Shown here piece after piece: positions 7,123 through 23,849 of a stretch of 64,000 bases of DNA. The notes under the pieces were generated by a model, which had not been told where the DNA came from, ran no database searches, and worked only from the letters and a program-made list of their open reading frames with translations. Both the position numbers and the translations under genes were made by a program. Numbering within the stretch: position 1 is the first letter of the stretch; each line of letters starts with the position of its first letter. This DNA is from Noviherbaspirillum pedocola (GTDB taxonomy: Bacteria; Pseudomonadota; Gammaproteobacteria; Burkholderiales; Burkholderiaceae_D), in the NCBI RefSeq assembly GCF_016632335.1, contig NZ_JAEPBG010000001.1, forward strand, positions 1 to 64,000, read 5' to 3'.

Positions 7123-8469
7123 TCAAAGCATATAGCCGATATCGGAAGCACCTGTTGGATAGGCAAATATCGTCGACTTCAAGTTTTGGGCGGTTAGTTC
7201 ATGCCGAATAGCTAGAGCGAAGAGATTGATGACTTCATCAGCATTTGGCCCGACCAAATGTGCGCCCAATACCCGTTCTGTGGTTTCCTCAACGAGCACC
7301 TTGAAGCCATATACTGGCTCTGCTGATTGCCGAGCCGTGAACCAGGTTGATGCTTTCTCGCTCTGGATACGGAATTTGAGCCCTTGGGCCCGGGCTTCCT
7401 GTTCTAACAGACCTACGCGAGCAATTGGCGGGATAGTGAACGCGACACTCGGTACGCCGCGATAATCAGGCCGCTGGTGGTTTCCCTTGAGTAGATTTTC
7501 AGCTACCACCTTGGCATCATGGCTTGAAACCGGCGTCAATGGCGGCCCTTTTTGCGCGACGTCGCCGGCTGCGTAAATTGCGGGGTTCGATATGCTTTGC
7601 AAATAGTCGTTGAGCTCCAGCTTTCCGTTTTTGGTAGTTACTCCCGCCGCGACGAGATTCAACGATTCCAGGTCGGGAGAGCGTCCTCCAGCATGGACAA
7701 CCAAATCCGCGTCAATAGTGACTTTGCGGCCATTCGTAGACGCATGGACACGGTAGTTTGCGCCAATTTTCTCGACAGCCTCTACCGACGTTTTAGTGCG
7801 GACATCAATGCCAAGTGCTTGGAATTTCTCCATCAGCCAAGCCACCAGGTCGGCATCGAATCCCTTCAACATGCGGTCGCCACGCTGAAGAATCGTCACG
7901 TTCGCGCCAGCACGAGCTGCAATATGGGAGAACTCGGCGGCAATATAGCCCCCACCCACTAACACGATTCGCCGTGGCAGGCTCTCAAGAGCAAGGAAGC
8001 CTTCATTGTCGATTAGGTATTCCTCACCCGGGATATTGAGCTTAACCGGTTCAGCCCCCGAGGCGAGCAGGATGTATTTCGAATCGAGCGCTTCGCCATC
8101 TACTTCGAGGGAGTTTCTGCCGGTGAGTCGCGCCCGGCCATGATAGGTATCAATGCCCTTGTCGGTGTAACGCTGCGCATTTTTTTCTGGTACCGGGTCC
8201 GTGAAAGAGCGCTTGAACGCCATCAGCTTTTCCCAGTCGATATGGGCATCGCCGACGACTCCGTTGCCGCGCATGCGTTGGACATGGTCAATCGCAGAAG
8301 CTCCCGCAATCAGCATCTTCTTGGGGTCGCAACCACGCAAGGCACAGGTACCGCCCAAAGGACGGAAATCGATAACGGCAACTTGCCAGCCGGCTGCGCG
8401 TACCCGCATAGCCGCCACCATCGCCGCCGTGCCGGCGCCAATCACAACGAGGTCATATTGCTTCGCCAT
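7123..8469 (-). CDS. MerA-like FAD/NAD(P) disulfide oxidoreductase lacking the C-terminal Cys pair
   Basis: 448 residues; AAGGA precedes the ATG. It is a class I pyridine nucleotide-disulfide oxidoreductase: FAD-binding G-A-G-T-A-A near residues 11-16, redox pair C42-A-L-R-G-C47 followed by D-P-K-K, a second nucleotide fold at G-G-G-Y-I-A-A-E-F near 170-180, the A-A-G-D motif near residue 300, and a dimerisation domain with A-Y-P-T. It ends in G-Y-M-L, so it has neither the N-terminal MerP-like domain nor the C-terminal vicinal cysteines of true mercuric reductase. It is the last gene of the merT-merP operon, so a metal- or thiol-linked reductase role is likely; Hg(II) reduction is unproven. 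Confidence 0.8.
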   Translation of the reverse strand: MAKQYDLVVIGAGTAAMVAAMRVRAAGWQVAVIDFRPLGGTCALRGCDPKKMLIAGASAIDHVQRMRGNGVVGDAHIDWEKLMAFKRSFTDPVPEKNAQRYTDKGIDTYHGRARLTGRNSLEVDGEALDSKYILLASGAEPVKLNIPGEEYLIDNEGFLALESLPRRIVLVGGGYIAAEFSHIAARAGANVTILQRGDRMLKGFDADLVAWLMEKFQALGIDVRTKTSVEAVEKIGANYRVHASTNGRKVTIDADLVVHAGGRSPDLESLNLVAAGVTTKNGKLELNDYLQSISNPAIYAAGDVAQKGPPLTPVSSHDAKVVAENLLKGNHQRPDYRGVPSVAFTIPPIARVGLLEQEARAQGLKFRIQSEKASTWFTARQSAEPVYGFKVLVEETTERVLGAHLVGPNADEVINLFALAIRHELTAQNLKSTIFAYPTGASDIGYML

Positions 8470-8535
8470 TTGTTATATCCTTTTTGCGCATGAGTGCGTT
8501 GGGTTTGCGTGCCAGCGGCGGAATGGTCGCCTACG

Positions 8536-8748
8536 TTAGCTGCAGCAATCTCGTTGCTCTTGCACCGGCGGGCACTTTACCGACCCATACGTACAGAAGA
8601 CACAACAGTCCCCAGACTTCGGACGAAGAACAGTCTTACAGTTCTCGCATTCGTAATAGAACTGACAGGCATCAGTCGGCATCGTTTCGCGTTTGGCGAA
8701 ACCGCACCTTGGGCAAGTCAATATCGATTCGGTAATTGGACCGGTCAT
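8536..8748 (-). CDS. small Cys-rich mer-operon-associated protein
   Basis: 70 residues, starting 5 bases after the merP stop codon. It holds C-P-R-C, C-E-N-C and then G-D-C-C-V-F-C-x-Y-G-S-V-K-C-P-P, a signature I recall from small proteins found beside heavy-metal genes; it ends R-D-C-C. Eleven cysteines in 70 residues imply zinc binding or capture of a thiophilic metal. It is cytoplasmic (no signal peptide). Sitting between merP and the reductase-like gene, it may pass metal between them, which is inference. Confidence 0.7.
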   Translation of the reverse strand: MTGPITESILTCPRCGFAKRETMPTDACQFYYECENCKTVLRPKSGDCCVFCTYGSVKCPPVQEQRDCCS

Positions 8749-8753
8749 CCTGA

Positions 8754-9032
8754 TTACCTTCGTGGCGTGGATGGGTAACCTGCATCGGTTGTAGCCTTGA
8801 CCAGCGCGGCAGTATCCGCCTTGGCCGGGTCAAACTGGACCGTCGCCGTCTTGTGGTCATAATCGACCTTGGCGTCTTCAACGCCTGGCACTTTTTGCAG
8901 CGCCTTTTTCACGGTCACTTCGCATAGCGAGCAGGTCATGTTCTTCACATCGAGAACTGTCGACTGTGACGCCGCGAATGCCGACGCCATGGGTAACAGG
9001 CCCAGCGCCAGGATTTTTGCAAGAAGTCGCAT
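8754..9032 (-). CDS. merP: MerP-like periplasmic mercury-binding protein
   Basis: 92 residues. The start at 9032 is chosen because AAGGAACC precedes it and a signal peptide follows (L-L-A-K-I-L-A-L-G-L-L-P-M-A-S-A-F-A). The mature part is a single heavy-metal-associated domain with N-M-T-C34-S-L-C37, and the C-terminus G-Y-P-S matches MerP. MerP takes Hg(II) in the periplasm with its two cysteines and hands it to MerT. It lies 11 bases downstream of merT in the same operon. Confidence 0.85.
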   Translation of the reverse strand: MRLLAKILALGLLPMASAFAASQSTVLDVKNMTCSLCEVTVKKALQKVPGVEDAKVDYDHKTATVQFDPAKADTAALVKATTDAGYPSTPRR

Positions 9033-9043
9033 TTTGGTTCCTT

Positions 9044-9391
9044 TCAGATAAATAGAGGGGCTACCGCCGGGAAAGCGAGCAATCCGATGATGAAGACGGT
9101 GACCACCCAGAAAATCGCACGCTGCCGTTTGACTACCACAGGAATAGCGCAAGCCTGCCCCGGACTACAGACTTGCTTGACCAGATAGAGACGGCGAAAC
9201 GCCATGGCAAAGAAAAGCACGGTAAGCCCAATGAATAGCGGCCGGTACGGTTCGAACGCCACCAGATTGCTAATCCAGGCGCCACCAATACCGAGCGTCA
9301 ACAGCAGTAAAGGACCGACGCAGCAAACTGAGGCGCCAATGGCGGCCAAAACGCCAACGGCTAGCGACCGTTTCGAATCCCAAAAAAGCAT
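9044..9391 (-). CDS. merT: MerT mercuric transport protein
   Basis: 115 residues, preceded by GGGAGGAG. Three hydrophobic segments fit the MerT topology. The first carries the vicinal pair S-V-C23-C24-V-G-P that accepts Hg(II) from MerP; the loop between the second and third carries C75-S-P-G-Q-A-C81, the cytoplasmic-side pair. First gene of the operon merT-merP-Cys-rich protein-reductase, read from the merR-merT intergenic promoter. Confidence 0.9.
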   Translation of the reverse strand: MLFWDSKRSLAVGVLAAIGASVCCVGPLLLLTLGIGGAWISNLVAFEPYRPLFIGLTVLFFAMAFRRLYLVKQVCSPGQACAIPVVVKRQRAIFWVVTVFIIGLLAFPAVAPLFI

Positions 9392-10635: not shown

Positions 10636-11034
10636 CTAGTGGCGAGCGGTTCGCTCGAGCTCGTCGAGAATTGGGCATTCCGGCCGGTGGTTTCCTTCGC
10701 AGGTATCAGCAAGGTGCTGCAGTTGGTTCCGTATGGACTGCAGCTTTTCGATGTCTGCGTCGAGCTCGCTGATGTACTGGCGGGCGAGCTTGCGGACCTC
10801 TGAGTTTCTGCGACTACGGTCTTCCCAGAGCTCGAGTAGCGTTCGGATACGCTCAATAGAGAATCCCAGCTCGCGTGCGCGTTTGATGAAGCGTAGTTTC
10901 TGCACGTCAGTCTGGCCATACTGGCGATACCCGGATTCAGTACGGTGAACAGCAGAAATCAATTCGATGCTTTCGTAATACCGAATCATCTTTGCTTTCA
11001 CACCAGATGCCTCTGCTGCCTGTCCGATGTTCAT
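10636..11034 (-). CDS. cueR: CueR copper-responsive regulator
   Basis: 132 residues. The start at 11034 overlaps the copA stop codon (ATGA). MerR-type DNA-binding domain: [21 protein letters not shown]. The metal loop has C112 and C120 followed by P-I-L, the same positions as the Cu(I)/Ag(I) ligands of E. coli CueR, and no third cysteine. It therefore senses monovalent coinage metals and should activate the promoter in front of copA, and so also its own transcription. Confidence 0.88.
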
Positions 11035-13454
11035 GACTGCCCTCCCTGCCCGGTTGCTGGCTTCCACCGGCGCAGCAGCAGTGCATTCGAGACCACGCTG
11101 ACGCTGCTGAATGCCATTGCTGCGCCCGCAATCACCGGATTCAGATATCCAAGAGCTGCCAGCGGAATGCCGATGACGTTGTAGAGGAAGGCCCAGCCAA
11201 GGTTTTGTTGAATCTTGCGGTATGTCTTCTTGGAGATATCGATGGCGTCTGCCACGAGCACCGGGTCTCCACGCATCAGGGTAATGCCCGCCGTGTGTAT
11301 GGCGACGTCCGTACCGGTGGCCATGGCAATGCCGACATCGGCTGCCGCAAGAGCAGGCGCGTCATTGATGCCGTCACCGACCATCGCCACTTTGCCTCCA
11401 TCGCGTTTCAGCGCAGTAACGACGTTCGCTTTGTCCGCAGGCAGAACCTCGGCCTCGAAATCCGTAACGCCGACGGCGGCTGCAACGGCTTTCGCACTTC
11501 CTGCATTGTCCCCGGTCAGCATTACCGAGCGTACCCCGATGCGGTTAAGCCGGGACACCGCTGCCTTCGCCGAAGCCTTGAGCGTGTCGCCAAAGGCCAA
11601 GAGCCCGGCAAGTGCAATGTCGTCAGCAGTTTGCACCGCTAGCCAGGATACGGTTTGTCCGGCGTCTTCATGGGCTTTGGCAGCGTTTTCCATCTGCGTT
11701 ACCGGGACGCCGATTTCTTCCATCAGGCGCTTGTTGCCCAAGAACACCGTTGCGCCGTCCACATCAGCCTGGACGCCACGTCCGGGAAGCGCTTTGGCTG
11801 CGGAAGCGGGGCGAAGTACGACTGCGCGGGAAACGGCAGCGACTTCGACTGCCTTCGCCAAAGGGTGGTCGCTGTACTGCTGAACGGCCCTGGCGAGCTC
11901 GAGAACTTCACTATCTGACCGGGCAGCGCCCTCAATACCGACGACTGCTGGCTTGCCTTCCGTCAGCGTGCCGGTCTTGTCGAACGCCACCGTAGTTACC
12001 GCATGCGCGGTTTCAAGAGCTTCCGCATCCTTGATAAGGATGCCGTATCGAGCGGCTGCGCCGGTGCCAGCCATGATGGAAGTCGGCGTGGCCAGACCAA
12101 GCGCGCAAGGGCAGGCAATCACCTGGACCGCCACAGCGTTCAACAAGGCTTGCTGCCAGTCTCCGGTAAGCAAGCCCCAACCGAAGAACGTGACCAGTGA
12201 GATGAACAAGACAACCGGGACGAAGACTGCACTCACCTTGTCGACGAGCCGCTGAATCGGGGCCTTTACCGCTTGCGCCTCTTCGACCAGTTTGATGATA
12301 TGCGAGAGCATCGTCGCGCCGCCAACGGCGGTAGCTTCCAGCACGAGAAGACCTTCGGCATTTACCGCGCCCCCGGTCACTGCGTCGCCAATGGTCTTGG
12401 CCACCGGCAGGCTTTCGCCGGTCAGAAGGGATTCATCCAGGTGGCTGCTTCCTTCGATAACGACGCCATCGACCGGAAGACGGTCTCCCGGGCGGACAAT
12501 CACCGTATCGCCTACCTGAACAGAAGCAATCGGCACCTCGCTCTCTTGACCATCACGCCGAATAATTGCGACGGCCGAACGCAAGGATTCGAGCGCACGC
12601 AAGGCGGCAACCGTCTGGTGTTTCGCTCGAGCTTCCATCCATTTGCCGAGCAAAATCAGCGTAATGACAACGGCAGACGATTCGAAATACAAATGATGCA
12701 TGCCTTGGTGGCCCGCGTCTTTTATCAGCAGATAAACCGACAGGCCGTAGGCAGCGCTTGTCCCGAGAGCGACGAGCAGGTCCATGTTGCCTGACTTGGC
12801 TCGCAGCGCCTTCCAGCCCGCCTTGTAAAAGCGGGCACCCAACCAGAACTGCACTGGCGTGGCCAGCAATAGCTGCAACCATCCGGACAGCATCCAGTCC
12901 CGGCCGAACAGCATTCCGAACATCGGGGCGACCAGTGGTGCGCTCAACAGGGCTGATACCGCGACCGGCCACCACGTTGGAAGTCGATTCGCGGGTTGTG
13001 ACGCGGGCGCGCCCCCGGCTTCGACAGCTGCGTCATAGCCAGCTTTTTGCACGGCGGCGATGAGAACATCGACCGGCACACCAGTCGTGCGGATTTGCGC
13101 CTTTTCAGTCGCAAGATTGACAGACGCCTCGGTGACGCCCGGCACCTTTCTGAGCACCTTTTCCAAGCGTGCCACACAAGACGCGCAGGTCATGCCGGAA
13201 ATCGACAATGCGACTTGTTCTCCGGGCACTTCATAACCGGCCTTTTCCACCGCCTTCGAAATCGCCTCGAAGCTTACGGTGGGCGCTGCGTACACGGTGG
13301 CGTTCTCGGTTGCCATATTGACGGAAGCACTCTTCACCCCAGGAACTGCTTGTAACGCCTTTTCCACACGTGAGACGCACGATGCGCAAGTCATCCCACC
13401 GATTTTGAAGCTCAGTTCCGTGGTGTCTGCTCTTTCCCTAACAGCGGTATCCAT
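11031..13454 (-). CDS. copA: CopA Cu(I)-exporting P1B-type ATPase
   Basis: 807 residues. Two N-terminal metal-binding domains with M-T-C23-A-S-C26 and M-T-C90-A-S-C93; eight membrane segments; actuator T-G-E-S near 345; the Cu(I) channel motif C-P-C at 448-450; phosphorylation site D-K-T-G-T near 492; S-D-H-P in the nucleotide domain; hinge G-D-G-I-N-D-A-P near 700. It moves Cu(I) (and Ag(I)) from cytoplasm to periplasm using ATP. First gene of a copA-cueR-DUF4396 operon. The antisense frames across it are shadows. Confidence 0.95.
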
Positions 13455-13477
13455 AAAACCTCCTGTCTATGTCCCTC

Positions 13478-13508
13478 ACGATAGTGATTCCAACGATGGG
13501 AAGGTCAA
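13478..13508 (-). promoter_or_regulatory. CueR-type promoter of copA
   Basis: On the minus strand TTGACC (-35) and TATCGT (-10) are separated by 19 bases, with ACCTTCCC at one side and GGAATC at the other of the spacer (13486-13505). This is the layout of CueR-controlled copA promoters. It lies 24 bases before the copA start codon. Confidence 0.75.
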
Positions 13509-13551
13509 GGGAGGATTTTGGTGGTAACGAGACGGAACAGGCATACTCTGT

Positions 13552-13672
13552 CTACAGCGCTTTACGCCTGGAAACATCGAGCGCAAAGCGGGCGTCCATC
13601 TTGTGTGGATGGTCAAGTGCGACCAACTGTGCCGCACTTTCAGGCGGAATGGTGAATTGCAAACGCGTAGAC
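13552..13672 (-). pseudogene. possible C-terminal fragment of an unknown gene
   Basis: Between copA's promoter and the bufD stop codon, a minus-strand frame reads like protein for about 40 residues (Q-F-T-I-P-P-E-S-A-A-Q-L-V-A-L, then D-A-R-F-A-L-D-V-S) and ends in TAG at 13552. There is no start codon or ribosome binding site, so it is either a remnant or chance. I do not recognise it. Confidence 0.25.
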
Positions 13673-13696
13673 TTTCTTATTCTTTGCCCCCGCGAC

Positions 13697-14179
13697 TTAC
13701 CGGCCCAGGACTACGGGTCCACTGAGCCGTCGGTATAGCCAGTAGTCTACTGACCATTTTCCAGCGCCTCGGCACAACAAGATAAGCAGCATTGCTGCCC
13801 ATTGAATATGGGTTGGCCATGCAAGCGGATACACAAACACCTCAATGACGGTCGTCATCCCGAGCAACACCAAGGCCACCGGGCGGGTCGCCAACCCGAG
13901 GATTAGGAGTACCGGTGTTGTCAGCTCGATAGAGACTGCAAGATAGGCGGCAATCTCAGGAGGAAGAAACGGCAACCGATACTCCTCCCGGAATAGTTCA
14001 AGCGCGGTACTCCAATTGGCCAGCTTCGTCATCGCCGAGTTCCAGAATATGGTGGCGACAGCGAACCGTAACGGGAGCGCGAGCAAGCTGTAGGGCACCC
14101 GCTCGAGCCATCCAACTATGCTTCGCGACCAGCTTGTCGACGACGAGTCCCATAATGCAGATTGTGAAAGATGCTTCAT
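13697..14179 (-). CDS. bufD: DoxX-family membrane protein of the bufferin operon (BufD-like)
   Basis: 160 residues, DoxX-like: four membrane segments including L-P-L-R-F-A-V-A-T-I-F-W-N-S-A-M-T-K-L and P-V-L-L-I-L-G-L-A-T-R. The start overlaps the stop codon of the upstream DUF2063 gene by 4 bases. DoxX proteins are the usual fourth member of bufferin/MNIO operons (bufABCD); an electron-transfer or maturation role in the membrane has been suggested for the family but I cannot show it here. Last gene of the operon. Confidence 0.8.
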   Translation of the reverse strand: MKHLSQSALWDSSSTSWSRSIVGWLERVPYSLLALPLRFAVATIFWNSAMTKLANWSTALELFREEYRLPFLPPEIAAYLAVSIELTTPVLLILGLATRPVALVLLGMTTVIEVFVYPLAWPTHIQWAAMLLILLCRGAGKWSVDYWLYRRLSGPVVLGR

Positions 14180-14991
14180 ATGACATCCTCTCCGAGTAAT
14201 AACTCGCGCGCCCTCATGGACAGGTCAATATCGGTGAAGCAGCCTGATGCAAGAAGCGACGCGAGCCAAAGATGTGTCTCGGCTTCCGGCATCCCGACGA
14301 GAGCCGTACCCAATTGCTGTCCTGCAAGCAGCGCGGCGGTAAGCTTCCACTGCCACCCCGCTATTCGTTCCACTTCTATTCCCGACGCGGACCGGCGAAC
14401 AAGCAAAAACACCGCAGCGTTATCCAGGCTGATTTGCGCCAAGGCGCTCTCGTCACGGTCCAAGACCGCGCGCCAAATGACATCGATTGGAAACGTGGAC
14501 TGGAGCATCCGTACGGCAGGATGCGCCACAAACCGCACGTTTCCGAGTTCTGACTGTTCCACGCAAGCGAGGCGAGCGACCTCGAGAGGTTCTTTATCGG
14601 GCGCATGCAGGGCCTCATTCACAGCCCATTCAAGCCGTGCAGTATCAGGGAGATAGCCAAGTGCCGCCGCTTCGGGCATGCGTGCAAAAAAATCCGGAAA
14701 TCCGGCGCCATAGGCGTCCAGGTACGCGCTCATCGGCGGGTTCTGCTCGATGAACAAGCGTGCGGCGCCCTCGAAGAATTCGGCCCCGACCAACAATTGG
14801 ACGACCGGATAAGACAAGCGTAGTGAGCTGACCAGCGTACTGGTTACGGTATTACGGTAAATCGTGATTCGGCTACGGGCGTCCAGTCCATCAGTCACGA
14901 CAAATTCGGAGGCATGACTATCGCCTGCACTGAGTAGGTCAGAGTAGACTGCCTGCTGCAGCTCAAGCAGCGTTGGCGTACGGGGATGCAT
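14176..14991 (-). CDS. bufC: DUF2063 partner of MNIO enzyme (BufC-like)
   Basis: 271 residues from the ATG at 14991, overlapping the 3' end of bufB by 29 bases; the longer start at 15021 is less likely. The N-terminal part has the DUF2063 signature: R-I-T-I-Y-R-N-T-V, then L-R-L-S-Y-P-V-V and A-R-L-F-I-E-Q-N-P-P. In bufferin systems this protein carries a peptide-recognition (RRE-like) role and forms a complex with the DUF692 enzyme to bring in the BufA precursor. The C-terminal half is a variable helical domain. Confidence 0.82.
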   Translation of the reverse strand: MHPRTPTLLELQQAVYSDLLSAGDSHASEFVVTDGLDARSRITIYRNTVTSTLVSSLRLSYPVVQLLVGAEFFEGAARLFIEQNPPMSAYLDAYGAGFPDFFARMPEAAALGYLPDTARLEWAVNEALHAPDKEPLEVARLACVEQSELGNVRFVAHPAVRMLQSTFPIDVIWRAVLDRDESALAQISLDNAAVFLLVRRSASGIEVERIAGWQWKLTAALLAGQQLGTALVGMPEAETHLWLASLLASGCFTDIDLSMRARELLLGEDVI

Positions 14992-15853
14992 TTCGCTGTT
15001 TCTCCAAAGCTGCCGTGGCAATTGCCGCCTCTTCCATCAACACGTCGAGCGCGGGCACGCTCGTGTCCCATTCAATCAAGGTCGGGACACATCCGAAACG
15101 TTTGAGCGCTTGCTCATAAAGGGACCAGACTGACGACGCAACACGTGAACCATGGTCGTCGATGAGAATGACCTGGCCATTGTCGAGTTGGCGTTCACTG
15201 TGGCCAGCCAAATGAATTTCGGTAACTGCCTCCGGCGGCAAGGCATCCAGATAGGCTTTGGCATCCCAGCCATGGTTCTTGGCGCTGACATATATGTTGT
15301 TGACGTCGCACAAGATGCCGCAACCGGTTCGCCGTGCCACTTCGGCGAGAAACTCCCACTCTGGGATAGTTGAATGTTGGAAACGTAGGTAGGACGAGGG
15401 ATTTTCGATTGCGATACGGCGCTGCAGGCAAGACTGCATATGGTCAACGTTATTGCATACGACGCGCAACGCTTCCTCGGTCAACGGCAGCGGTAGCAAA
15501 TCGGCTAGATACCTTCCGCCGATGACACTCCACGAGAGATGCTCCGATACCAGTCCAGGTTCGACACGCTCTACGACTGCGCGAACGCGGTTCAAATGGT
15601 GAACATCGATTCCTTCGGCACTTCCAAGTGATAATCCGACTCCATGCAGCGAAATCGGATAGTCGCGTCGAATGGAGTCCAGACAGCCAGGCGTTCTACC
15701 TCCGCCCATGTAGTTTTCCGTGTGCACTTCAAACCAGGCGATAGCAGGACGCTCATCTATCACTTCCTGATGATGTCGGAAGCGCAGCCCGACGCCGGCG
15801 CGTGCCGGAATCAGGCTGGATGCACGCAGCGAAGCAGATAATGCAGCATGCAT
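14963..15853 (-). CDS. bufB: DUF692 multinuclear iron oxidase (BufB-like)
   Basis: 296 residues from the ATG at 15853; the longer frame to 16009 overlaps bufA and has an Arg-rich non-family N-terminus. The TIM-barrel ligands of MNIO enzymes are all visible: F-E-V-H-T-E-N-Y, S-L-H-G-V-G, S-E-H-L-S-W, I-E-N-P-S-S-Y, C-D-V-N-N-I-Y, E-I-H-L-A-G-H, D-D-H-G and I-E-W-D. The family uses two or three iron ions to oxidise cysteines of a precursor peptide, giving copper-binding heterocycles in bufferins. Here the substrate is the adjacent bufA product, 13 bases upstream. Confidence 0.9.
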   Translation of the reverse strand: MHAALSASLRASSLIPARAGVGLRFRHHQEVIDERPAIAWFEVHTENYMGGGRTPGCLDSIRRDYPISLHGVGLSLGSAEGIDVHHLNRVRAVVERVEPGLVSEHLSWSVIGGRYLADLLPLPLTEEALRVVCNNVDHMQSCLQRRIAIENPSSYLRFQHSTIPEWEFLAEVARRTGCGILCDVNNIYVSAKNHGWDAKAYLDALPPEAVTEIHLAGHSERQLDNGQVILIDDHGSRVASSVWSLYEQALKRFGCVPTLIEWDTSVPALDVLMEEAAIATAALEKQRNASPYANAA

Positions 15854-15866
15854 AGCCGACTCTCGC

Positions 15867-16187
15867 TCAGGTAGGATTCGGCTTGCCGCCCTGGATTTTG
15901 CTGCAATCGCCTGCTGGTAGCAGAACGAACGACTTCGTATCGCGCGCCTGCGTCGCCTGACCGGCACAGGAGTGGGCTCCCTCGGCACAGTCATTCTTTG
16001 CCGCGGCATTGATGCCGTAGCATTTTTCGAGCTTGCTATTTTTCATTCTTGCCATGTTGTCTTTGACCACTTGCGGCATGGCGCCCATATCTTTCGACTG
16101 CTGTGCTTGAGCAGGGAGAGCTTGCATGGCGAGCGCCAAGCCGATGGCTGAAGACAGGGTCGAGGCGGCCAAAACGTGTTTGTTCAT
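15867..16187 (-). CDS. bufA: bufferin precursor peptide, DUF2282 (BufA1-like)
   Basis: 106 residues from the ATG at 16187 (GGAG upstream). A signal peptide (V-L-A-A-S-T-L-S-S-A-I-G-L-A-L-A, cleavage near A-Q-A) precedes a core with four cysteines at 56, 67, 74 and 95 in the DUF2282 pattern: E-K-C-Y-G, N-D-C-A, H-S-C-A-G, G-D-C-S-K. Bufferins are secreted, their cysteines are modified by the MNIO enzyme, and they bind copper in the periplasm. It is the first gene of bufABCD and lies behind a SigF-type promoter. Met-rich stretch near 34-48 (M-G-A-M, N-M-A-R-M). Confidence 0.88.
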   Translation of the reverse strand: MNKHVLAASTLSSAIGLALAMQALPAQAQQSKDMGAMPQVVKDNMARMKNSKLEKCYGINAAAKNDCAEGAHSCAGQATQARDTKSFVLLPAGDCSKIQGGKPNPT

Positions 16188-16237
16188 CTTGCATTCTCCG
16201 GAAGATTGCGGCCCGATTTCGGCACCGTATCTTGAAG

Positions 16238-16263
16238 TTCGGCGGAACACCGCTAAAGGTTAC
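16238..16263 (-). promoter_or_regulatory. ECF (SigF-type) promoter of the bufferin operon
   Basis: On the minus strand GTAACC (16258-16263) and CGAA (16238-16241) are separated by exactly 16 bases. That is the -35/-10 signature I recall for the Caulobacter SigF regulon, which also drives a bufferin operon. It lies 50 bases before the bufA start codon. The divergent gene encodes the matching type of sigma factor. Confidence 0.75.
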
Positions 16264-16286
16264 CGTCCTTTCAAAATATTTTTTGC

Positions 16287-16979
16287 ATGACGTTTGCCCG
16301 GTCCATCGCGCAAAATGCAGCCATGCTCAAGTACCCATTTCGTCTCGGCCCCTCCACAGACCTGGAGCATGAAGCCGAGAAGTTCACCACGTCGAAAGTG
16401 CAGACTGAATCGTCAAGTCTTCGAGGAGACGGGACATTGGACTGGTCCATTGCGATGGCCAATGCACAAGCTGGCGACCAGGAGGCCTATCGCCGACTCC
16501 TTGAAGGCATCACCCCTTATGTACGAGCGCTCGTGGCCCACCAGATACGCAATAGCGCCGACATCGAGGATACGGTTCAAGATGTTTTGCTGACGATACA
16601 CTCGGTACGCCATACCTATGACCCGTCGCGCCCATTCGGGCCATGGCTGGTTGCTATTGTGAACAGGCGAATTACCGACGGGTTACGCCGGCGTGGGCGT
16701 GTTGACGCGCGCGAGATGCCGCTTCAACCTGAGCACGAAACTTTTGTTTCCACGGATACTAACTCGCAAGAAGAAGCTGTGGACGCGCGCTTGGTACGCG
16801 CCGCCGTCGAGCGCTTGTCGGCAGGACAGCGTCACGCCGTGCGCATGCTGAAGCTGGAAGAAATGTCACTAGAGGAAGCTTCCGCTGCGAGCGGGATGTC
16901 GATATCCGCGCTAAAGGTCGCGACGCACCGGGCAATGAAGCGCCTGCAAGAGCTATTCAAGCAGGGAGATAAGAGATGA
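16287..16979 (+). CDS. sigF: ECF sigma factor (SigF-like) controlling the bufferin operon
   Basis: 230 residues from this ATG, but the start is uncertain: a TTG at 16437 preceded by AGGAG would give a 180-residue protein of more usual length. Region 2 (Q-E-A-Y-R-R-L-L, D-I-E-D-T-V-Q-D-V-L-L-T-I-H) and region 4 (L-S-A-G-Q-R-H-A-V-R-M-L-K-L-E-E-M-S-L-E-E-A-S) are clear. The next gene, overlapping by 4 bases, is its NrsF-type anti-sigma. Release of the sigma factor by metal stress should switch on bufABCD. Confidence 0.85.
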   Translation: MTFARSIAQNAAMLKYPFRLGPSTDLEHEAEKFTTSKVQTESSSLRGDGTLDWSIAMANAQAGDQEAYRRLLEGITPYVRALVAHQIRNSADIEDTVQDVLLTIHSVRHTYDPSRPFGPWLVAIVNRRITDGLRRRGRVDAREMPLQPEHETFVSTDTNSQEEAVDARLVRAAVERLSAGQRHAVRMLKLEEMSLEEASAASGMSISALKVATHRAMKRLQELFKQGDKR

Positions 16980-17632
16980 TGAACCGAACCAATGACTTGA
17001 TTAACCTGCTTGTTGCAGACGTAAAGCCGGTTAAGCGGCTTCGCGCTCCCATTGTAAGAGCCGCATGCTGGATATTGTTTGCCATGCTAATCATGGTTCT
17101 CGTCGGTATCGCGCACGGTCTGCGGCCAGACTGGGAGCTGAAGCTCGGCCAGCCTCGTTTTCTTCTCGGTGTAGCAGCAGCCATCACCACAGGGCTGCTC
17201 GCTGCCGTAGCGGCGTTCATGGTTAGTGTCCCAGGGACGTTACGCCGGTGGCTTTTGTTGCCGATACCAGCGGCGGGCGTCTGGTTCGGGACGATTGGCT
17301 ATGGTTGCCTGTCTGAGTGGGTTGCCATTGGTCCGGACGGCATTTCTTTTGGCGAGACGGCACGTTGCTTTGCAACGCTGGGATTGGTCGGCATGCCGCT
17401 GTCCCTCTTGATGCTCCTCATGTTACGGCACGTAGCCCGGCTATCACCGAATTCCGTCGCGATGACGGGTAGCCTCTCTGTCGCGGCGATGACGGCAGCT
17501 GCGCTGTCGGTATTCCATCCGCTTGATGCCACAATCATGATATTGATATGGAACCTTGGACTGGCCGCCTTGTTTGTGTGGTTAAGCGGCAAGTATGCGC
17601 GGCGTATTTTCGAATGGATGGAGTCCCAGTGA
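16976..17632 (+). CDS. nrsF: NrsF-type membrane anti-sigma factor (DUF1109)
   Basis: 218 residues with six membrane segments, DUF1109-like. Two cysteines, C111 (G-Y-G-C-L-S-E-W) and C131 (T-A-R-C-F), lie in the regions where NrsF proteins carry the cysteine pair thought to sense metals such as chromate, cadmium or copper. The start overlaps the sigma stop codon (ATGA), so the two are co-translated. It holds the sigma factor at the inner membrane until the signal arrives. Confidence 0.85.
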   Translation: MMNRTNDLINLLVADVKPVKRLRAPIVRAACWILFAMLIMVLVGIAHGLRPDWELKLGQPRFLLGVAAAITTGLLAAVAAFMVSVPGTLRRWLLLPIPAAGVWFGTIGYGCLSEWVAIGPDGISFGETARCFATLGLVGMPLSLLMLLMLRHVARLSPNSVAMTGSLSVAAMTAAALSVFHPLDATIMILIWNLGLAALFVWLSGKYARRIFEWMESQ

Positions 17633-17639
17633 TAGCAAG

Positions 17640-18326
17640 CTAATTTCCCTTGCAGAGCTGGTCAGCCAAAACCTGTATATCAGCAACGTTGAAATCAGGT
17701 TTTGGTCCTAAAGGAAAAAGTTGCTGGCCCGCGCGGGCGACAAACGCAGTTTGCAAGCCAGCCCATTTTGCGCCGGCGACATCCCATCCATGGGCAGCGA
17801 CCAACATGCACTGGCCTGGCTCACAACCCATTTCTTTGACTGCCCATTCGTAAACGGAGCGGTGTGGCTTGTATTTTCCGACGCTTTCGACACTAAGTTG
17901 ACGCTCAAAGCAATCCGACAGCCCCGCGTAGTCGATTTGTGCTTTGACGCCTGACTGCGAAGAATTCGTTAACGTCGCCAACCGAAAGCCCTTCTGCTTC
18001 AATTGCTCCAATCCCGGTCGTACATCCGGAAACGCAGGAAGCGTGCGCATTGGTTCGAGAGCTTTCTTCGCCTGCTCCGTAGTCAAAACAACGTCCGTAT
18101 TCTTAGCCATCATTTCCAGAACGGCTGCGCCGATGTCCGGTAGCGATGCGTGCTGTTCGCTGGCTGTCATGACGAGAGAGTACTGAAGCATGGTTGTAAA
18201 CCATAGTTTAGCGGCGCGCTCATCCAGGAGTACGGCATTGATGCTCTCCGACAACGGCGTCAAATCTAGCAGCGTCTCATTTACGTCAAATAGAAGCACC
18301 GTTGGACGGAGTTTCTGCTCAACCAT
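17640..18326 (-). CDS. type II haloacid dehalogenase-like HAD hydrolase
   Basis: 228 residues; AAGGAG precedes the ATG. HAD motif I is L-F-D-V-N-E-T-L-L-D (nucleophile D14), motif II T-L-T-N-S-S near 118-123, the Lys is in G-K-Y-K-P-H-R near 150, and the acidic motif is A-A-H-G-W-D near 180. The F-D-V-N-E-T-L form is typical of L-2-haloacid dehalogenases, which remove halide from 2-haloalkanoates; many relatives are phosphatases. It ends 7 bases from the convergent nrsF gene and has no evident metal link. Confidence 0.8.
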   Translation of the reverse strand: MVEQKLRPTVLLFDVNETLLDLTPLSESINAVLLDERAAKLWFTTMLQYSLVMTASEQHASLPDIGAAVLEMMAKNTDVVLTTEQAKKALEPMRTLPAFPDVRPGLEQLKQKGFRLATLTNSSQSGVKAQIDYAGLSDCFERQLSVESVGKYKPHRSVYEWAVKEMGCEPGQCMLVAAHGWDVAGAKWAGLQTAFVARAGQQLFPLGPKPDFNVADIQVLADQLCKGN

Positions 18327-18755
18327 TTTTCGTCTCCTTCTATTACAAGAAAGTGTTTAAATCGGTGTTGTCCTATAGATGGAGATTTTAGACTATACGT
18401 TCCAAAACATTTTTCAGCAACTGATTTGGCACTGTATTTTCGTTTTGGATTAACGTACATGCCGCAAGAATCCTTCGATTTTCTTGCGGGTGCTCGATTG
18501 AGAAACATGAGTCTGGCTACACCAGACCGGAAAGCGCAAATGTGTTTACTCCCATCAACTAACGCCTCATGCTCGCCTGCGTACGCATGGCGAGCATTCC
18601 CAACGTCAGCACGACCTCGCGTGGGACGGATAGAACCCGCATGTCCAACTGCATTGCCATGAGCTGTTGACGCATCATTCCCGCGTTCCGGACATTTACC
18701 ATCGCCATGCGCACTAGGTGGATAGGCATTTGCAAGAAAACCGCGCGAGCCCTTA
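18327..18755. other. spacer between HAD gene and cus operon, with one Met-rich frame
   Basis: About 430 bases. A 56-codon minus-strand frame (18559-18729) beginning M-P-I-H-L-V-R-M-A-M-V-N-V contains ten methionines, but it has no ribosome binding site and resembles low-complexity frames often found opposite or beside real genes. Nothing else was recognised. The cusF end lies immediately to the right, so transcript termination of the cus operon must happen here; no strong hairpin was found. Confidence 0.35.
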
Positions 18756-19139
18756 CTACTTTTCCACAGTCAACGCTGTAACCGTCGCCTGGTCTTTGAC
18801 CCTTTCAACAGCGACTTTGACCTTGTCACCTGCTTTAACCGTCGAAAGCAGCGAAGCGTTTTGAACTGGGAAAGTCATCGTCATCGGTGGCATTTCGACC
18901 GTTGTGCTTTTCAAGGGGCCATGCTGTATGGTGATGGCTTTTCCTGCCTTATCGACCGCCTTCACTTCTGCCTCATTCGTGGCCAGTCCAGCAGTCTTGG
19001 ATGAGCCCATTTGCATAGAATTCATTTTCATGTTGCCCATATCCATTTTCATGCTGCCATTACCTTGGTCAGCGTAGGCATTCAGCACCAGCATGGCAAA
19101 GCCGAAAGCTGCGGTGGTTTTAATCAGTAAATTCTCCAT
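18756..19139 (-). CDS. cusF: CusF-like periplasmic Cu/Ag-binding protein
   Basis: 127 residues from the ATG at 19139, preceded by AAAGGAG. A signal peptide ends near A-Y-A-D. A Met-rich linker (M-K-M-D-M-G-N-M-K-M-N-S-M-Q-M) is followed by the CusF OB fold: I-T-I-Q-H-G-P-L, P-P-M-T-M-T-F and V-K-V-A-V-E. His and the two Met of the P-M-T-M motif, with a nearby aromatic, bind Cu(I)/Ag(I) in the family. It would deliver metal to the CusB adaptor. Its start overlaps the cusA 3' end by 20 bases. Confidence 0.88.
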   Translation of the reverse strand: MENLLIKTTAAFGFAMLVLNAYADQGNGSMKMDMGNMKMNSMQMGSSKTAGLATNEAEVKAVDKAGKAITIQHGPLKSTTVEMPPMTMTFPVQNASLLSTVKAGDKVKVAVERVKDQATVTALTVEK

Positions 19140-22100
19140 GGGATGACTCCTTTGTGGATGAGAGTGGAAAATGGGTATTGCGTCGTAGCTTGTGCTCTTG
19201 AAGGAGGCGCCAAGCCGCGGGGATGACAAAGAGGGACAGCAACGGTGCCGTCAACATCCCTCCGACCATAGGCGCTGCGAGTCTCGACATAGCTTCATGC
19301 CCTGCCTCATGCCCCAGCATCAAAGGAATCAGTCCGGCCAAGATGACAGAGACAGTCATGGCTTTGGGCCGAACGCGCTGCACCGCGCCTTCCCGTATAG
19401 CCTCGGCAATCAGTTCCTTGGTTAACGGGCGCCCGGCGTCCAAGCGTTGTTGGAGCGCATTGCGCAGGTAGACCAGCATGACTACGCCGAACTCCGCTGC
19501 AAGCCCCGCCAGCGCGATGAAACCGACCGCCGTGGCGACCGAAACCGCGTGACCGAGCAGCCAGATGAACCAGAAGCCGCCGATGAGTGCAAATGGCACG
19601 GTCAGCATCAGCAGAAGCGCTTCCGAGACCGACCGGAAGGCCAGGTACAGTAGGAAGAAAATAACCAGCAACGTAGCCGGAATGACAGTTTCCAGCCGCG
19701 CAGCCGCGCGTTCCATACTTTCGAATTGGCCGGACCACCCGATTGAGTAGCCGGGCGGAAGCTTGACCTCGCGAGCCACCGCGCCTTGCATGGCCTTGAC
19801 CGCTGAGAGCAAGTCCGTGCCGCGTACATCCACATAGACCCACCCCGACAGCCGGGCATTTTCGCTGCGTACCATTGGCGGCCCATCGGTGATGCGCACC
19901 CCGGCGATATCGCCCAGCCGAATCTGCGCCCCCTTGTCGGTGACAACTGGGAACTCCCGCAGGGATTGCACCGAGTCCCGGTATTGCTGCGGATAGCGTA
20001 CGTTGATGGGGAAGCGCTGGCGGCCGTCGACGACTTCGCCAACGTTCTCGCCGCCAATCGCCGATGACACGACAGACTGCACATCGGCCACAGACAAGCC
20101 ATACCTTGCCGCGCGTGCCCGGTCGACATTGACATCGATGTATCGCCCACTGCTTACCCGCTCTGCCAACGCCGACGTCACTCCCGGGACGCCTTTGACG
20201 GCTGACTCTATTTGCCGCGTGATGTGGTCAATTTCTTCGAGGTCCGCTCCTGAAACCTTCACGCCGACTGGCGTTTTAATTCCCGTAGAGAGCATGTCCA
20301 GACGATTACGAATAGGCGGCACGAACACGTTAGAGAGACCTGGCACCTTCACCACGCGGTCTAGTTCCTCGACCAGTTTTTCAGTAGTCATGCCGGCCCG
20401 CCATTGCTCTCTGGGCTTGAACTGGATGGTCGTCTCGAACATCTCCATCGGCGCCGGGTCAGTGGCTGACTCCGCGCGGCCCGCCTTGCCGAAGACCGTA
20501 GTCACCTCGGGCACCGTTTTGATGAGCCGGTCAGTCTGCTGCAGGAGTTCGCTCGCCTTGGATGCAGCCAGTCCAGGCAATGCGGATGGCATGTAGAGCA
20601 GGTCGCCCTCATCCAGCGCTGGCATGAATTCACCGCCCAAGCGCGAGACCGGTATGGCGGTCAACGCTAGAGCGATAAGAGCAATGCCAATGGCCCAGGC
20701 TGGATACCGGATACTGGCCTCCAGTAGCGGCCGGTAAGCGCGAATTAGTACCCGGTTGAGCGGATTGGACGCCTCGCTGGGAATGCGGCCGCGGATGAAG
20801 TAGCCCATCAGGACCGGGACCAGCGTAACTGCCAAACCGGACGCCGCCGCCAATGCGTAGGTCTTGGTGTACGCCAAGGGCGAAAACAGCTTACCTTCCG
20901 CGGCTTCTAAGGCGAACACCGGAACGAATGACAGCGCTACGATGAGGAGCGAGAAAAACAGTGCCGGCCCGACTTCAATGGCGGCCGCTGTCACAAGCTC
21001 CCAGCGTTCTTTGTTGCCGATTTGTCGATTGGGGTGAGCATGCGCATAGGCCTCCAGATGCTTGTGGGCGCTCTCCACGAGCACGACGGAGGCGTCAGTG
21101 GCGGCACCGATTGCCAAAGCTATCCCGGCAAGGGACATGACGTTGGCATTCACCCCCTGGTACCGCATCACAATGAACGCCGCGAGCACCGCCACTGGAA
21201 GTGACAGGATGGCGACCAAGGAACTACGGAAATGGAACAGGAAGATGGCGCAGACGACCGCGACCGCAATGAATTCCTCGATGAGCTTATTGCGGAGATT
21301 CTTCACCGCAGCGGTAATCAGGTTTGACCTATCATAGGTGCGCACCACCTCAACGCCTTTGGGCAGGGAGCCTTGCAGGCTTGCCAGCTTCGCCTTGACC
21401 GCCTTGATGGTGTCCAGGGCATTCTTCCCCGAGCGCATCACGACCACGCCGCCTGCGACTTCGCCCTGACCATTCAGTTCGGCGATACCGCGGCGCATTT
21501 CCGGCCCCAGACGGATGGTGGCGACATCGCGCAGTAGGACGGGCGTCCCGGTGTCGCTGGCACTCAAGAGCACATTACGGAAGTCTTCCAGGGAGCGCAG
21601 ATACCCACGCGAGCGGACCATGTATTCCGTCTCGGCCATTTCGACGACAGAACCGCCTGTTTCCTGATTGGCCTTCGCCAGAGCATCGAGCACCTTCGCG
21701 TGCGAAATGCCAAATATCCGCAGCTTGTCCGGGTCCAGGACCACTTGGTATTGCTTGACCATGCCACCGATGCTGGCAACTTCAGCAACATCCGGAACCG
21801 TTTTGAGTTCGTACTTCAGGAACCAGTCGTTCATCGCTCGCAACTGGCTCAGGTCGTGCTGTCCAGTGCGGTCGACCAAGGCGTATTCGTAGACCCAGCC
21901 AAGCCCCGTGCCATCCGGCCCCAGTTCCGCTCGTACGCCCGGCGGCAGGCGGCTTTGGACTTGGCTCAGGTATTCCAGCACCCGCGAGCGTGCCCAGTAC
22001 AAATCGGTGCTGTCGTCAAACAGGACGTAGACGAACGAATCCCCGAAGAAAGAATAGCCTCGAACCGTCTTCACGCCGGGTACGGACAGCAGGGCCGTAC

Positions 22101-22308
22101 TGAGCGGGAACGTCACCTGGTCTTCAATGAGCTGCGGCGACTTCCCCGGATAATTGGCCCGGATGATTACCTGCGTTTCCCCGATGTCGGGCAAGAAATC
22201 GAGCGGAACGGTCATTGCCGCCCGCGCGCCCACAATCAAGATGACAGCGGCAGTAAGCAGCACCCAGAACCTGTTGGCGATGGATGCCCGAATAATACGG
22301 GCAATCAT
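19120..22308 (-). CDS. cusA: CusA-type heavy-metal RND efflux pump
   Basis: 1062 residues, the normal length for HME-RND pumps, with 12 membrane segments and large periplasmic loops. The sequence follows the monovalent-cation class: D-F-L-P-D-I-G-E-T-Q-V-I near residue 40 and, in the periplasmic cleft, three methionines in the contexts L-L-Y-M-P-S, A-P-M-E-M-F-E-T-T and R-L-D-M-L-S-T-G-I-K, matching the Cu(I)/Ag(I) ligand positions of CusA. It exports metal from periplasm or cytoplasm through CusC using the proton gradient. Start overlaps the cusB stop codon by 4 bases. Confidence 0.93.
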   Translation of the reverse strand: MIARIIRASIANRFWVLLTAAVILIVGARAAMTVPLDFLPDIGETQVIIRANYPGKSPQLIEDQVTFPLSTALLSVPGVKTVRGYSFFGDSFVYVLFDDSTDLYWARSRVLEYLSQVQSRLPPGVRAELGPDGTGLGWVYEYALVDRTGQHDLSQLRAMNDWFLKYELKTVPDVAEVASIGGMVKQYQVVLDPDKLRIFGISHAKVLDALAKANQETGGSVVEMAETEYMVRSRGYLRSLEDFRNVLLSASDTGTPVLLRDVATIRLGPEMRRGIAELNGQGEVAGGVVVMRSGKNALDTIKAVKAKLASLQGSLPKGVEVVRTYDRSNLITAAVKNLRNKLIEEFIAVAVVCAIFLFHFRSSLVAILSLPVAVLAAFIVMRYQGVNANVMSLAGIALAIGAATDASVVLVESAHKHLEAYAHAHPNRQIGNKERWELVTAAAIEVGPALFFSLLIVALSFVPVFALEAAEGKLFSPLAYTKTYALAAASGLAVTLVPVLMGYFIRGRIPSEASNPLNRVLIRAYRPLLEASIRYPAWAIGIALIALALTAIPVSRLGGEFMPALDEGDLLYMPSALPGLAASKASELLQQTDRLIKTVPEVTTVFGKAGRAESATDPAPMEMFETTIQFKPREQWRAGMTTEKLVEELDRVVKVPGLSNVFVPPIRNRLDMLSTGIKTPVGVKVSGADLEEIDHITRQIESAVKGVPGVTSALAERVSSGRYIDVNVDRARAARYGLSVADVQSVVSSAIGGENVGEVVDGRQRFPINVRYPQQYRDSVQSLREFPVVTDKGAQIRLGDIAGVRITDGPPMVRSENARLSGWVYVDVRGTDLLSAVKAMQGAVAREVKLPPGYSIGWSGQFESMERAAARLETVIPATLLVIFFLLYLAFRSVSEALLLMLTVPFALIGGFWFIWLLGHAVSVATAVGFIALAGLAAEFGVVMLVYLRNALQQRLDAGRPLTKELIAEAIREGAVQRVRPKAMTVSVILAGLIPLMLGHEAGHEAMSRLAAPMVGGMLTAPLLSLFVIPAAWRLLQEHKLRRNTHFPLSSTKESSHGEFTD

Positions 22309-23849
22309 TTCTTGCCCCCGTCAACCGGCGTGACGGTTTCGAGCACGTAGCTGCCGTCTTTGCCTTCCTTGAACGAGAACTCGACGTCCTGGCCAACTTT
22401 GGTTTCCGAGAAGGCGTCCGGACGTGGCTTAACAAACTCCATAGTCATGGCTGGCCATTGAAGTTCCGGGATGGGCTTGTGCGAGAACGTGATGCCCTGT
22501 GGAGAGACTTTCTCTACCTTGCCCACGCCGTGGTACACCGGCGCCGTACTGGTCGAGGTAGGCTCGGGGCCCGGCCGCGCTTGTCCCTGCGCCTGGGTCG
22601 CTTCGGCAAGCTTCGGCAGAGCGGCTTTTAGGCTAGCCTCCGAGTCAATCAGGAATTGTCCGGAGGAGATTACTTTCTGCCCCTCGGCCAGGCCGCTAAG
22701 AATTTCGGTGTCTTCCCCGATATCCCGGCCAGTCGTGACGGTCACCGGCTGCATGCTGTTGTTTTCGCCTGCGATGATGACCACTGACCTCTTTCCGGTC
22801 ACGATGACCGCCTCGGTGGGAACCAATAGACGAGAAACCGGCTTGTCGGCGCCAAGGCGGACCCGCATGAGCATTCCCGGGGTCAGGCTACCATCCCGGT
22901 TGTCCAGCTCAAGGCGGGCTTGTAGCGTTCTCGTGGCGGTGCTCACGCCAGGCAGGATTTCACGCACCTTGCCCGTATATTTCCGATTCGCGTCGCCGGA
23001 TGGTGCGGCTTCGACCAGCATTCCTGACCGCGCCGAATTGGCCAGCGCCTCCGGAATTTCGGCCACCAGCCAGACTTTGTTCAGGCCCGCCACTTTGGCT
23101 ACGGTCACTCCTGGCGAAACCATGGCGCCCTCGCGCACCGCCAACTCTGTGATAACGCCGGTTACTGGCGACGTCAGCGTAAGCTGGCTCTGCGCCTTGC
23201 CCGTCCGTTCAGCCTGGTCGACCAGCCCTGACGGAATGGAGAGAGCCTGCATCCGTTGGCGCGTGGCGGCCGCCAGTGCGTCGTTCCCGGACCGCTTGAG
23301 TGCCAGATACTCCTCTTGCGGACCAATCCAGTCTGGAACGAACAGCGAGGCGACCGGTTCTCCGCGCTTGATGCGCTGCATGGGCGCGCGGGCATAGAGC
23401 CGGTCGATGTAGCCGGTCACGCGGCTCTGTACGACTTCAGAAAGACTTTCGTCGAACTGGGTCGTGCCAACTACCTCGAGCGAGTCTCGCGTTTCCGCAC
23501 GGCGTACGGTAGCGAACCGGACTCCCAAATTCTGCTGCACGGTGGGACTAACTTTGACCCCGCCCTCTGCGGACGCTTCATCGGCATAGACAGGCACCAG
23601 CTCCATGTCCATGAAAGGACTCTTACCCGGCTTGTCGAACTTCTGGCCGGGCACCATTGGGTCATGCCAGTACAGAACCTTGCGACCCGTCTTCGGGTCA
23701 ATCTTGTCGCCTGCTACCGGGGCCGCCGACGCAGCTGGCGTAGCGGGTTGGCTCGTGCTCTGATGCATGCCGGCCCAGTAGCCGCCATAGGCCAGCCCGG
23801 CGCCAGCCAGCGCAAGAACTAAGGCTTTCATTACGATGTTCGACTTCAT
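22305..23849 (-). CDS. cusB: CusB-type periplasmic adaptor with fused C-terminal CusF domain
   Basis: 514 residues, longer than plain CusB (about 400). An N-terminal membrane anchor is followed by a heavy-metal-binding motif at 60-88 (Y-W-H-D-P-M then F-M-D-M-E-L-V-P-V-Y), the hairpin/lipoyl/barrel adaptor core, and at about 435-514 a CusF-like domain (G-I-T-F-S-H-K-P-I-P, Q-W-P-A-M-T-M-E-F). The fusion means metal delivery may be built into the adaptor although a separate CusF is also encoded. Overlaps both neighbours by 4 bases, so the operon is tightly coupled. Confidence 0.92.
   Translation of the reverse strand: MKSNIVMKALVLALAGAGLAYGGYWAGMHQSTSQPATPAASAAPVAGDKIDPKTGRKVLYWHDPMVPGQKFDKPGKSPFMDMELVPVYADEASAEGGVKVSPTVQQNLGVRFATVRRAETRDSLEVVGTTQFDESLSEVVQSRVTGYIDRLYARAPMQRIKRGEPVASLFVPDWIGPQEEYLALKRSGNDALAAATRQRMQALSIPSGLVDQAERTGKAQSQLTLTSPVTGVITELAVREGAMVSPGVTVAKVAGLNKVWLVAEIPEALANSARSGMLVEAAPSGDANRKYTGKVREILPGVSTATRTLQARLELDNRDGSLTPGMLMRVRLGADKPVSRLLVPTEAVIVTGKRSVVIIAGENNSMQPVTVTTGRDIGEDTEILSGLAEGQKVISSGQFLIDSEASLKAALPKLAEATQAQGQARPGPEPTSTSTAPVYHGVGKVEKVSPQGITFSHKPIPELQWPAMTMEFVKPRPDAFSETKVGQDVEFSFKEGKDGSYVLETVTPVDGGKK

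Follow-up and report, generated by a model that had tools for sequence, protein, structure and literature searches.

Bufferins of the Buf1 type have been described as copper chelators in which the two central cysteines are modified to thiooxazole and the outer two are joined by a disulphide, and a 2025 survey lists genes for a sigma factor and NrsF in Buf1 clusters (PMC12452194). The same gene set has been published in three further settings. In Cupriavidus metallidurans CH34, gigPABT-rpoQ-rsqA comprises the genes discussed here in the same order and with a divergent sigma/anti-sigma pair (PMC10304878). In Sinorhizobium meliloti, rpoE7-ecfR7, a pair of extracytoplasmic function (ECF) group ECF16, is divergent from the four genes SMb20530-SMb20527, which include DUF692 and DUF2063 genes and are raised by overexpression of RpoE7 (PMC6180224). 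In Caulobacter, CC3254-CC3257, encoding DUF2282, DUF692, DUF2063 and DoxX proteins, are under the NrsF-held sigma factor of sigF-nrsF and form one sigma-F regulon with it (PMC3511200). Here, we analyze a locus of this kind at positions 13697-17632 of a 64,000-nucleotide stretch of Noviherbaspirillum pedocola DNA (GCF_016632335.1, contig NZ_JAEPBG010000001.1, positions 1 to 64,000; hereafter, the window). Its architecture is thus already known. The locus confirms what has been published on this arrangement, in this case for a copy carried by a mobile metal-resistance island, and adds a conserved promoter before bufA, a likely leader hairpin in the bufA mRNA, and a His-type NrsF with an additional cysteine, C111.

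The open reading frame calls place bufA-bufB-bufC-bufD on the minus strand from 16187 to 13697 and the sigma and nrsF genes divergently on the plus strand. bufA (15867-16187) encodes a DUF2282 precursor of 106 amino acids (PF10048, E 3.9e-20), bufB (14963-15853) a multinuclear non-heme iron-dependent oxidative (MNIO) maturase (PF05114, E 4.1e-105; NF050167 MNIO_BufB, 384.8 bits with a cut-off of 310), bufC (14176-14991) a DUF2063 partner protein (PF09836, E 1.3e-20), and bufD (13697-14179) a DoxX family membrane protein (PF07681, E 3.5e-16). The RpoQ/SigF/RpoE7-like ECF sigma factor, with Sigma70_r2 and r4_2 domains, is encoded at 16323-16979 and the NrsF-family anti-sigma factor at 16976-17632 (PF06532, E 6.6e-26, 91.8 bits with a cut-off of 26.8); a longer reading of the sigma gene starts at 16287, and by eye across 16 loci the ATG at 16323 is the start most consistent in relatives. 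The Pfam matches of all six proteins exceed the curated cut-offs, while the NCBIfam HvfC equivalog model for BufC (33.1 of 142) and the HvfX family model for BufD (61.1 of 80) score below theirs. Assignments and coordinates agree with the gene order given in a preliminary description of this DNA, and all six reading frames are open. That description also had the genes overlapping by four bases or more, which holds for bufB/bufC (29 bp), bufC/bufD (4 bp) and sigma/nrsF (4 bp); the overlap of bufA and bufB was rejected, as these genes are separated by 13 bp (15854-15866). Profile searches of the 7.24-Mb draft genome returned one match each for PF05114, PF10048 and PF06532, all at the buf locus, and found no second MNIO, DUF2282 or NrsF gene. 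Judged from its sequence, the locus is a Buf1-type bufferin unit consisting of precursor, enzyme, partner and DoxX protein with its own sigma/anti-sigma pair.

The details of precursor and enzyme fit this assignment. First, the BufA core contains four cysteines (KCYG...NDC...SCAG...GDC), and an alignment of 79 BufA proteins shows Cys at C56, C67, C74 and C95 in 78 or 79 rows, any other row having a gap, so that the four-cysteine core noted earlier is borne out; by eye, the N-terminus is signal peptide-like. Second, H44, E46, H70, H105, E150, N151, D183, N185, H214, D232, H234 and E261 of BufB are invariant in an alignment of 30 rows (the window and 29 relatives that are 48-78% identical to it), and most of these twelve align with identical residues of 3bww, a solved MNIO chain, in line with the MNIO ligands proposed in the preliminary description. 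BufB also aligns with the solved chains 8hci and 7fc0, and we take its conserved His, Glu, Asp and Asn residues to be iron ligands, as in the MNIO literature. BufC had no match among solved chains at E ≤ 0.001. Third, the features that define Buf1 clusters, i.e., a four-Cys DUF2282 precursor, an MNIO of the BufB group, and an operon that also encodes a DUF2063 partner and a DoxX protein, are all present. Thiooxazole chemistry and copper chelation have been published for relatives (PMC12452194, PMC13097082), and by analogy BufA of the window would carry thiooxazoles and bind copper. Captophorins, which are thiooxazole metallophores, likewise rely on an MNIO and a DUF2063 partner acting on Cys-rich precursors, and DUF2282 is one of their three precursor groups; the solved products carry EGKCG-type repeats, unlike the DUF2282 core in the window (PMC13097082).

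A sigma-F type promoter of the form GTAACCTTT-N13-CGAA precedes bufA on the minus strand (16238-16263). Its sequence, GTAACCTTTAGCGGTGTTCCGCCGAA read from 16263 to 16238, ends 50 bases before the bufA start codon and matches the ECF16 target promoter consensus GTAAC(C)-N16/17-CGAA, the Caulobacter sigma-F site being GTAACC-N16-CGAA (Kohler et al. 2012, PMC3511200). Conservation in relatives supports this site. Among 99 loci with a BufB relative (L002-L100), the motif is found in 42 of the 43 that have a close sigma gene (tblastn identity >40%), at a nearly fixed place within the 900 bases before bufB and with L051 as the sole miss; it is found in 6 of the 56 loci lacking a close sigma gene, four of which (L055, L056, L071, L074) had <900 bases upstream, whereas the opposite strand carries it at 0 of the 99 loci. 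GTAACCTTT and CGAA are mostly constant across relatives, while the middle of the site varies. Three of the six other motif-bearing loci (L033, L042, L049) have a more distant sigma/NrsF pair nearby, and the other three (L030, L043, L044, the last a 5.5-kb contig) have no sigma/NrsF pair in the fetched DNA. A Herbaspirillum locus (L018) whose BufB is 74% identical has neither the site nor a sigma gene in 2 kb upstream. In the buf operons of the Paraburkholderia loci L030 and L043, which have no sigma gene in the flank, GTAACC-N16-CGAA is kept and the TTT after GTAACC is missing.

The known systems appear to differ from the window in how the sigma gene itself is controlled. CH34 (locus L113; BufB 46% identical, NrsF 31% identical over 108 residues) has, like the window, a sigma-F type promoter before gigP; unlike the window, it has an additional one, so that two motif copies face gigP and rpoQ, respectively. 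The Caulobacter sigF gene has its own promoter of the same type, and rpoE7 of S. meliloti appears to be autoregulated (PMC6180224). No motif copy facing the sigma gene was found in the window or in the 99 relatives, and the window-type sigma gene is therefore probably not autoregulated through its own sigma-F site. The 2023 gig study found no promoter before gigP and took control by RpoQ as an assumption, leaving it unproven (PMC10304878). The conserved bufA/gigP promoter, together with the facing copies in CH34 and the cassette exchange described below, makes RpoQ control of gig directly testable.

The putative sensor residues of NrsF differ from those published. Caulobacter NrsF has two named cysteines, C131 and C181 (PMC3511200), and Brucella NrsF has C129 and C179, the second of which is thought to meet the signal (PMC8315932). 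NrsF in the window keeps C131, has a His at the position of C181, and has gained C111. Across the window and 41 relatives, C131 is kept in 42 of 42 rows and C111 is invariant in 42 of 42 (36 of 36 in alignment A1, which holds the window and 35 of the 41 relatives), while His181 occupies the position equivalent to C181 in 41 of the 41 rows with a letter there, an equivalence read through the alignment with CH34, L123 and L125, not through Caulobacter NrsF itself. The window clade accordingly lacks the pair of cysteines, at C131 and C181, that marks the canonical Caulobacter-type NrsF. CH34 NrsF differs from that of the window in having a C181-type Cys and no C111, a combination shared by L123 and L125 in the alignment and, by motif, by L121, L033, L042 and L049. 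C111 together with His181 also occurs outside the clade (L116, L117, L119, L120, L124); L118 has the His without C111, and L122 has neither, with Glu at that column. A published description of a His-type NrsF was not found in a limited reading of the literature. The exchange of C181 for His offers a natural experiment on metal and oxidant sensing by this anti-sigma family.

A predicted structure of NrsF, of moderate quality (mean predicted local distance difference test score 77.4; 54.0 to 72.4 for the other four models), has long helices at 25-47, 60-83, 97-113, 125-150, 158-180 and 186-211. In this model, C111 is at the end of helix 97-113, C131 is found early in helix 125-150, and H181 comes after helix 158-180. 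Applied by eye, the positive-inside rule would place the three residues on the periplasmic side, and we infer that they may form a shared Cys2-His site. A fold search with the model yielded 174 matches at E ≤ 10 but not one at E ≤ 0.001.

The loci L033 and L042 have an operon and promoter of the window kind but a sigma/NrsF pair of the C181 type in another orientation, sigma and NrsF being co-directional with bufA (L033:6774-8457, L042:2193-3854). Because these loci combine a window-type promoter with a C181-type sigma/NrsF pair, they suggest that the whole sensor cassette has been exchanged over a fixed output promoter; a limited reading of the literature found no published description of such an exchange. 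The leader stem discussed below is full in L033 and interrupted in L042. Upstream of sigma/NrsF, both loci have, by eye, thioredoxin-like and DsbD/CcdA-like frames. We tentatively propose, at somewhat less than even odds, that this burkholderial clade is distinguished by a re-wired NrsF, in which C181 has become His and the new C111 completes a Cys2-His site fit for Cu(I), by a covarying hairpin at the start of the bufA mRNA as a second layer of control, and by cassette exchange.

Altogether, we favor a model in which the locus is a Buf1-type bufferin unit, making a copper-binding ribosomally synthesized and post-translationally modified peptide of the captophorin class, with a dedicated putative ECF16-type sigma/NrsF switch, and we put its probability at roughly 85%. 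Without stress, the sigma factor would be kept bound by NrsF in the inner membrane. Upon excess copper or another thiol-reactive envelope stress, C111, C131 and H181 at the periplasmic face of NrsF would react, and the sigma factor, presumably released as in the published relatives, would transcribe bufABCD from the GTAACCTTT-N13-CGAA promoter. Near its 5' end, the bufA message may have a hairpin that protects it or tunes its output. BufB and BufC would then convert the two central cysteines of BufA to thiooxazoles, and BufA, once exported, would retain periplasmic copper alongside CopA and Cus, with BufD, as a DoxX protein, in a membrane redox role. The genes, their order, the conservation of the promoter, the NrsF pattern and the island are observed features; the leader hairpin is less certain.

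Several points weigh against this model. The promoter match in the window alone is not significant, since 25 of 100 shuffles contain at least one match, and GTAACC-N16/17-CGAA is not enriched in the whole genome (12 compared with 39 in the backward control); a wide sigma-F regulon in this genome was set aside on this ground. The residue that would correspond to Caulobacter C181 is missing from this NrsF, and the published sensor model can therefore apply here only in altered form. Deleting rpoQ increased the expression of gig in C. metallidurans (PMC10304878). The S. meliloti rpoE7 reporters were silent to H2O2, cadmium and chromate (PMC6180224), and the Brucella ECF16 pair answers hypochlorous acid (PMC8315932).

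Copper and a wider thiol or oxidant stress are both candidate inducing signals, and hypochlorous acid or thiol stress is a serious rival inducer. In the main alternative, the system is a bufferin system but its switch answers oxidant or thiol stress, such as hypochlorous acid, oxidized methionine and soft metals, with copper as one of several inducers. In Caulobacter, sigma-F responds to chromium and cadmium and has a YedY gene among its targets (PMC3511200), and some motif sites found across the order precede MsrB-like and spondin-like (by eye) as well as DUF2282-like frames. However, copper and gold both induce gig in C. metallidurans, with a stronger response at elevated periplasmic Cu(I) (PMC10304878), the buf copy in the window lies between copA and cus, and the order-wide sites number 25, in 17 of 150 genomes (own included), compared with 38 in the backward control, so that part or most of them are chance. 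We regard a switch of this wider kind as somewhat less likely than not. An order-wide regulon was likewise set aside. By eye, the frames downstream of the order-wide sites are DUF2282-like at L144 and L149 and MsrB-like at L157 and L161, and the one at L124 is an EGKCG precursor; other sites appear chance-like. In L151, L153, L156, L157, L161 and L162, GTAACCTTT-N13-CGAA stands before MsrB-like or spondin-like secreted frames (by eye), as would be expected of an oxidant-response regulon, although the motif shows no genome-wide enrichment. In L150, L158, L164 and L166, the same motif precedes genes for small proteins that look secreted and have a high content of Met, Lys and Asp.

The favored model includes a possible leader hairpin in the bufA mRNA (16209-16227, minus strand), which begins 10 nucleotides after CGAA and in the window reads CGGTGCCG-AAAT-CGGGCCG with one bulge. 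In alignment A3, which holds 48 of 49 leaders (L010 left out), 47 of them distinct, 88.2% of cells in the six-pair stem are paired, compared with 76.7% when the 3' letters are re-dealt (0 of 500 reach the observed value), and pairing drops to 30-49% when the stem is slid by one to three columns. Cells changed on both sides number 38, compared with 16.5 in shuffles (0 of 500 reach this; 47 distinct leaders). The arms vary between U-A and C-G at one pair and between G-C, U-A and C-G at another, and the outer GG...CC is nearly constant. Counting stems without an alignment, at least six pairs form in 43 of 49 leaders, compared with a mean of 18 and a largest value of 26 in 100 shuffled sets; L005, L014, L025, L042, L046 and L048 fall below six. 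Merging similar leaders at 75% identity leaves 20 representatives, 14 of which form at least six pairs (shuffled mean 7.4; 1 of 200 sets reaches this), and at 70% identity 10 of 15 do (5.7 in shuffles; 3 of 200). This count was used instead of alignment A4, a realignment of 19 spread leaders that placed a gap outside the loop and was left unused for pair counts. Among five further loci, four reach six pairs and L141 has five. Stems of other sequence follow CGAA after 7 and 9 nucleotides in Nitrobacter (L116) and in a second type of locus from Paraburkholderia fungorum (L119), respectively.

Other measures speak against the hairpin. The count of pairs with a change on both sides is ordinary, being reached by 67 of 500 shuffles, as is that of further pair types (74 of 500); these two of the five covariation measures are the least inflated by relatedness, the remaining ones being raised by kinship among the rows, and the RNAalifold prediction is limited to four pairs (-2.4 kcal/mol). 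By most but not all measures, the sequences thus point to a hairpin that has likely been kept despite sequence change. Alternatively, the inverted repeat could serve a second regulator as a DNA operator or have arisen by chance. It lies directly after the likely transcription start, a usual place for an operator, and both the near-constant outer GG...CC and the two ordinary covariation measures agree with this. However, the stem arms change in step, although recognition by a single protein would leave an operator little room for such changes, and the stem excess survives the collapsing of similar leaders; we therefore regard an operator or a chance repeat as unlikely. That an RNA hairpin would serve to protect the 5' end or tune output is a guess. 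The hairpin may not be special to buf, because 14 of 24 other order-wide motif sites also form at least six pairs (a count made without a shuffle control and including the two DUF2282-like sites). In several leaders, RNAfold joins the nucleotides after CGAA to the AGGAG of the ribosome-binding site; this pairing is not claimed, because part of the 5' arm would precede the transcription start at the usual spacing between promoter element and start. Rfam gave no match up to E 1 in 13000-18500, and a limited literature search, which is weak evidence of absence, found no published description of a bufA leader hairpin.

The buf unit lies, as the preliminary description had it, between copA and cus genes. 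On its left, all on the minus strand, are a cueR-type gene for a Cu(I) regulator (10636-11067; TIGR02044 above cut-off) and copA for a copper-exporting P1B ATPase (11031-13454; TIGR01511 above cut-off); on its right, also on the minus strand, are cusF, cusA, cusB and cusC-type efflux genes (18756-25162; CusF_Ec, HlyD_D23 and OEP), in which the frame 19120-22308 matches plasmid genes annotated as resistance-nodulation-division (RND) permease (a DNA match). A tyrosine integrase gene (34020-35381, minus strand; PF00589) marks the right end of the island and adjoins mutS (named by eye) at 35553 on the plus strand; the first 36 kb have a GC content of 0.47-0.61, the remainder one of 0.60-0.67. In two genomes of the same genus (G001, G002), mutS is immediately preceded by a helix-turn-helix (HTH) gene that, by eye, includes a receiver-like part, and in a third (G003), the two genes are separated by ~5 kb with two other frames; the 7.5 kb at the mutS site has no match to the island in any of the three. 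The host copy of this HTH gene is on contig C80 (37877-38485), followed toward the contig end by genes for a ParA-like protein, a response regulator, and an RND permease with its outer-membrane partner and, at the very end, by a transposase gene with rve and HTH_21 domains. The island thus seems to be split over C80:1-37.8 kb and C1:1-35.4 kb. The integrase beside mutS, the continuation on C80 and the island-free site in three same-genus genomes support the earlier notion of a mobile island. Direct repeats of at least 12 bases were not found at the island ends, and a near-DNA search of window positions 6-28 kb against plasmids gave no match longer than about 2.8 kb.

The preliminary description also held that buf was acquired as part of a copper package, which is plausible here and does not hold generally. 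In flanks of up to 9 kb, shorter at contig ends, a close CusA (at least 60% identity) is found near buf in only 2 of the 43 relatives with a close sigma gene (L005, L027) and a full-length CopA match in 0 of 43; the copper neighbors therefore look like a local assembly. An MNIO gene is present in 33 of 60 family and order genomes searched, own included, and absent from all three same-genus genomes searched. This absence, which suggests that the host lineage may not depend on buf, and the small contribution of gig in C. metallidurans (PMC10304878) would fit a passenger that is intact in sequence and silent or useless in its host, but such a passenger is highly improbable, given six open frames, a preserved BufA core, kept BufB catalytic residues, an intact promoter, and a sigma factor of its own that spares the unit any need for a host regulator.

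The island also carries genes for MerT and a pyridine-nucleotide disulphide oxidoreductase (window 7123-9391); its part on contig C80 includes a response regulator gene together with an RND efflux set (L139:2348-10141). On a Paraburkholderia fungorum plasmid (L119:297-7272), a mer operon adjoins a second-type sigma/NrsF/buf unit. In L124 (2789, plus strand), a sigma-F type pattern near an NrsF gene precedes an EGKCG-repeat frame, i.e., a precursor of the oxazolin/captophorin type. Finally, a plasmid of Cupriavidus sp. KK10 (L142) has two extra sigma-F type sites near its buf unit (16450 and 19552, both minus strand), each followed by a possible hairpin, and one of them precedes a secreted-looking frame of 65-80 amino acids.

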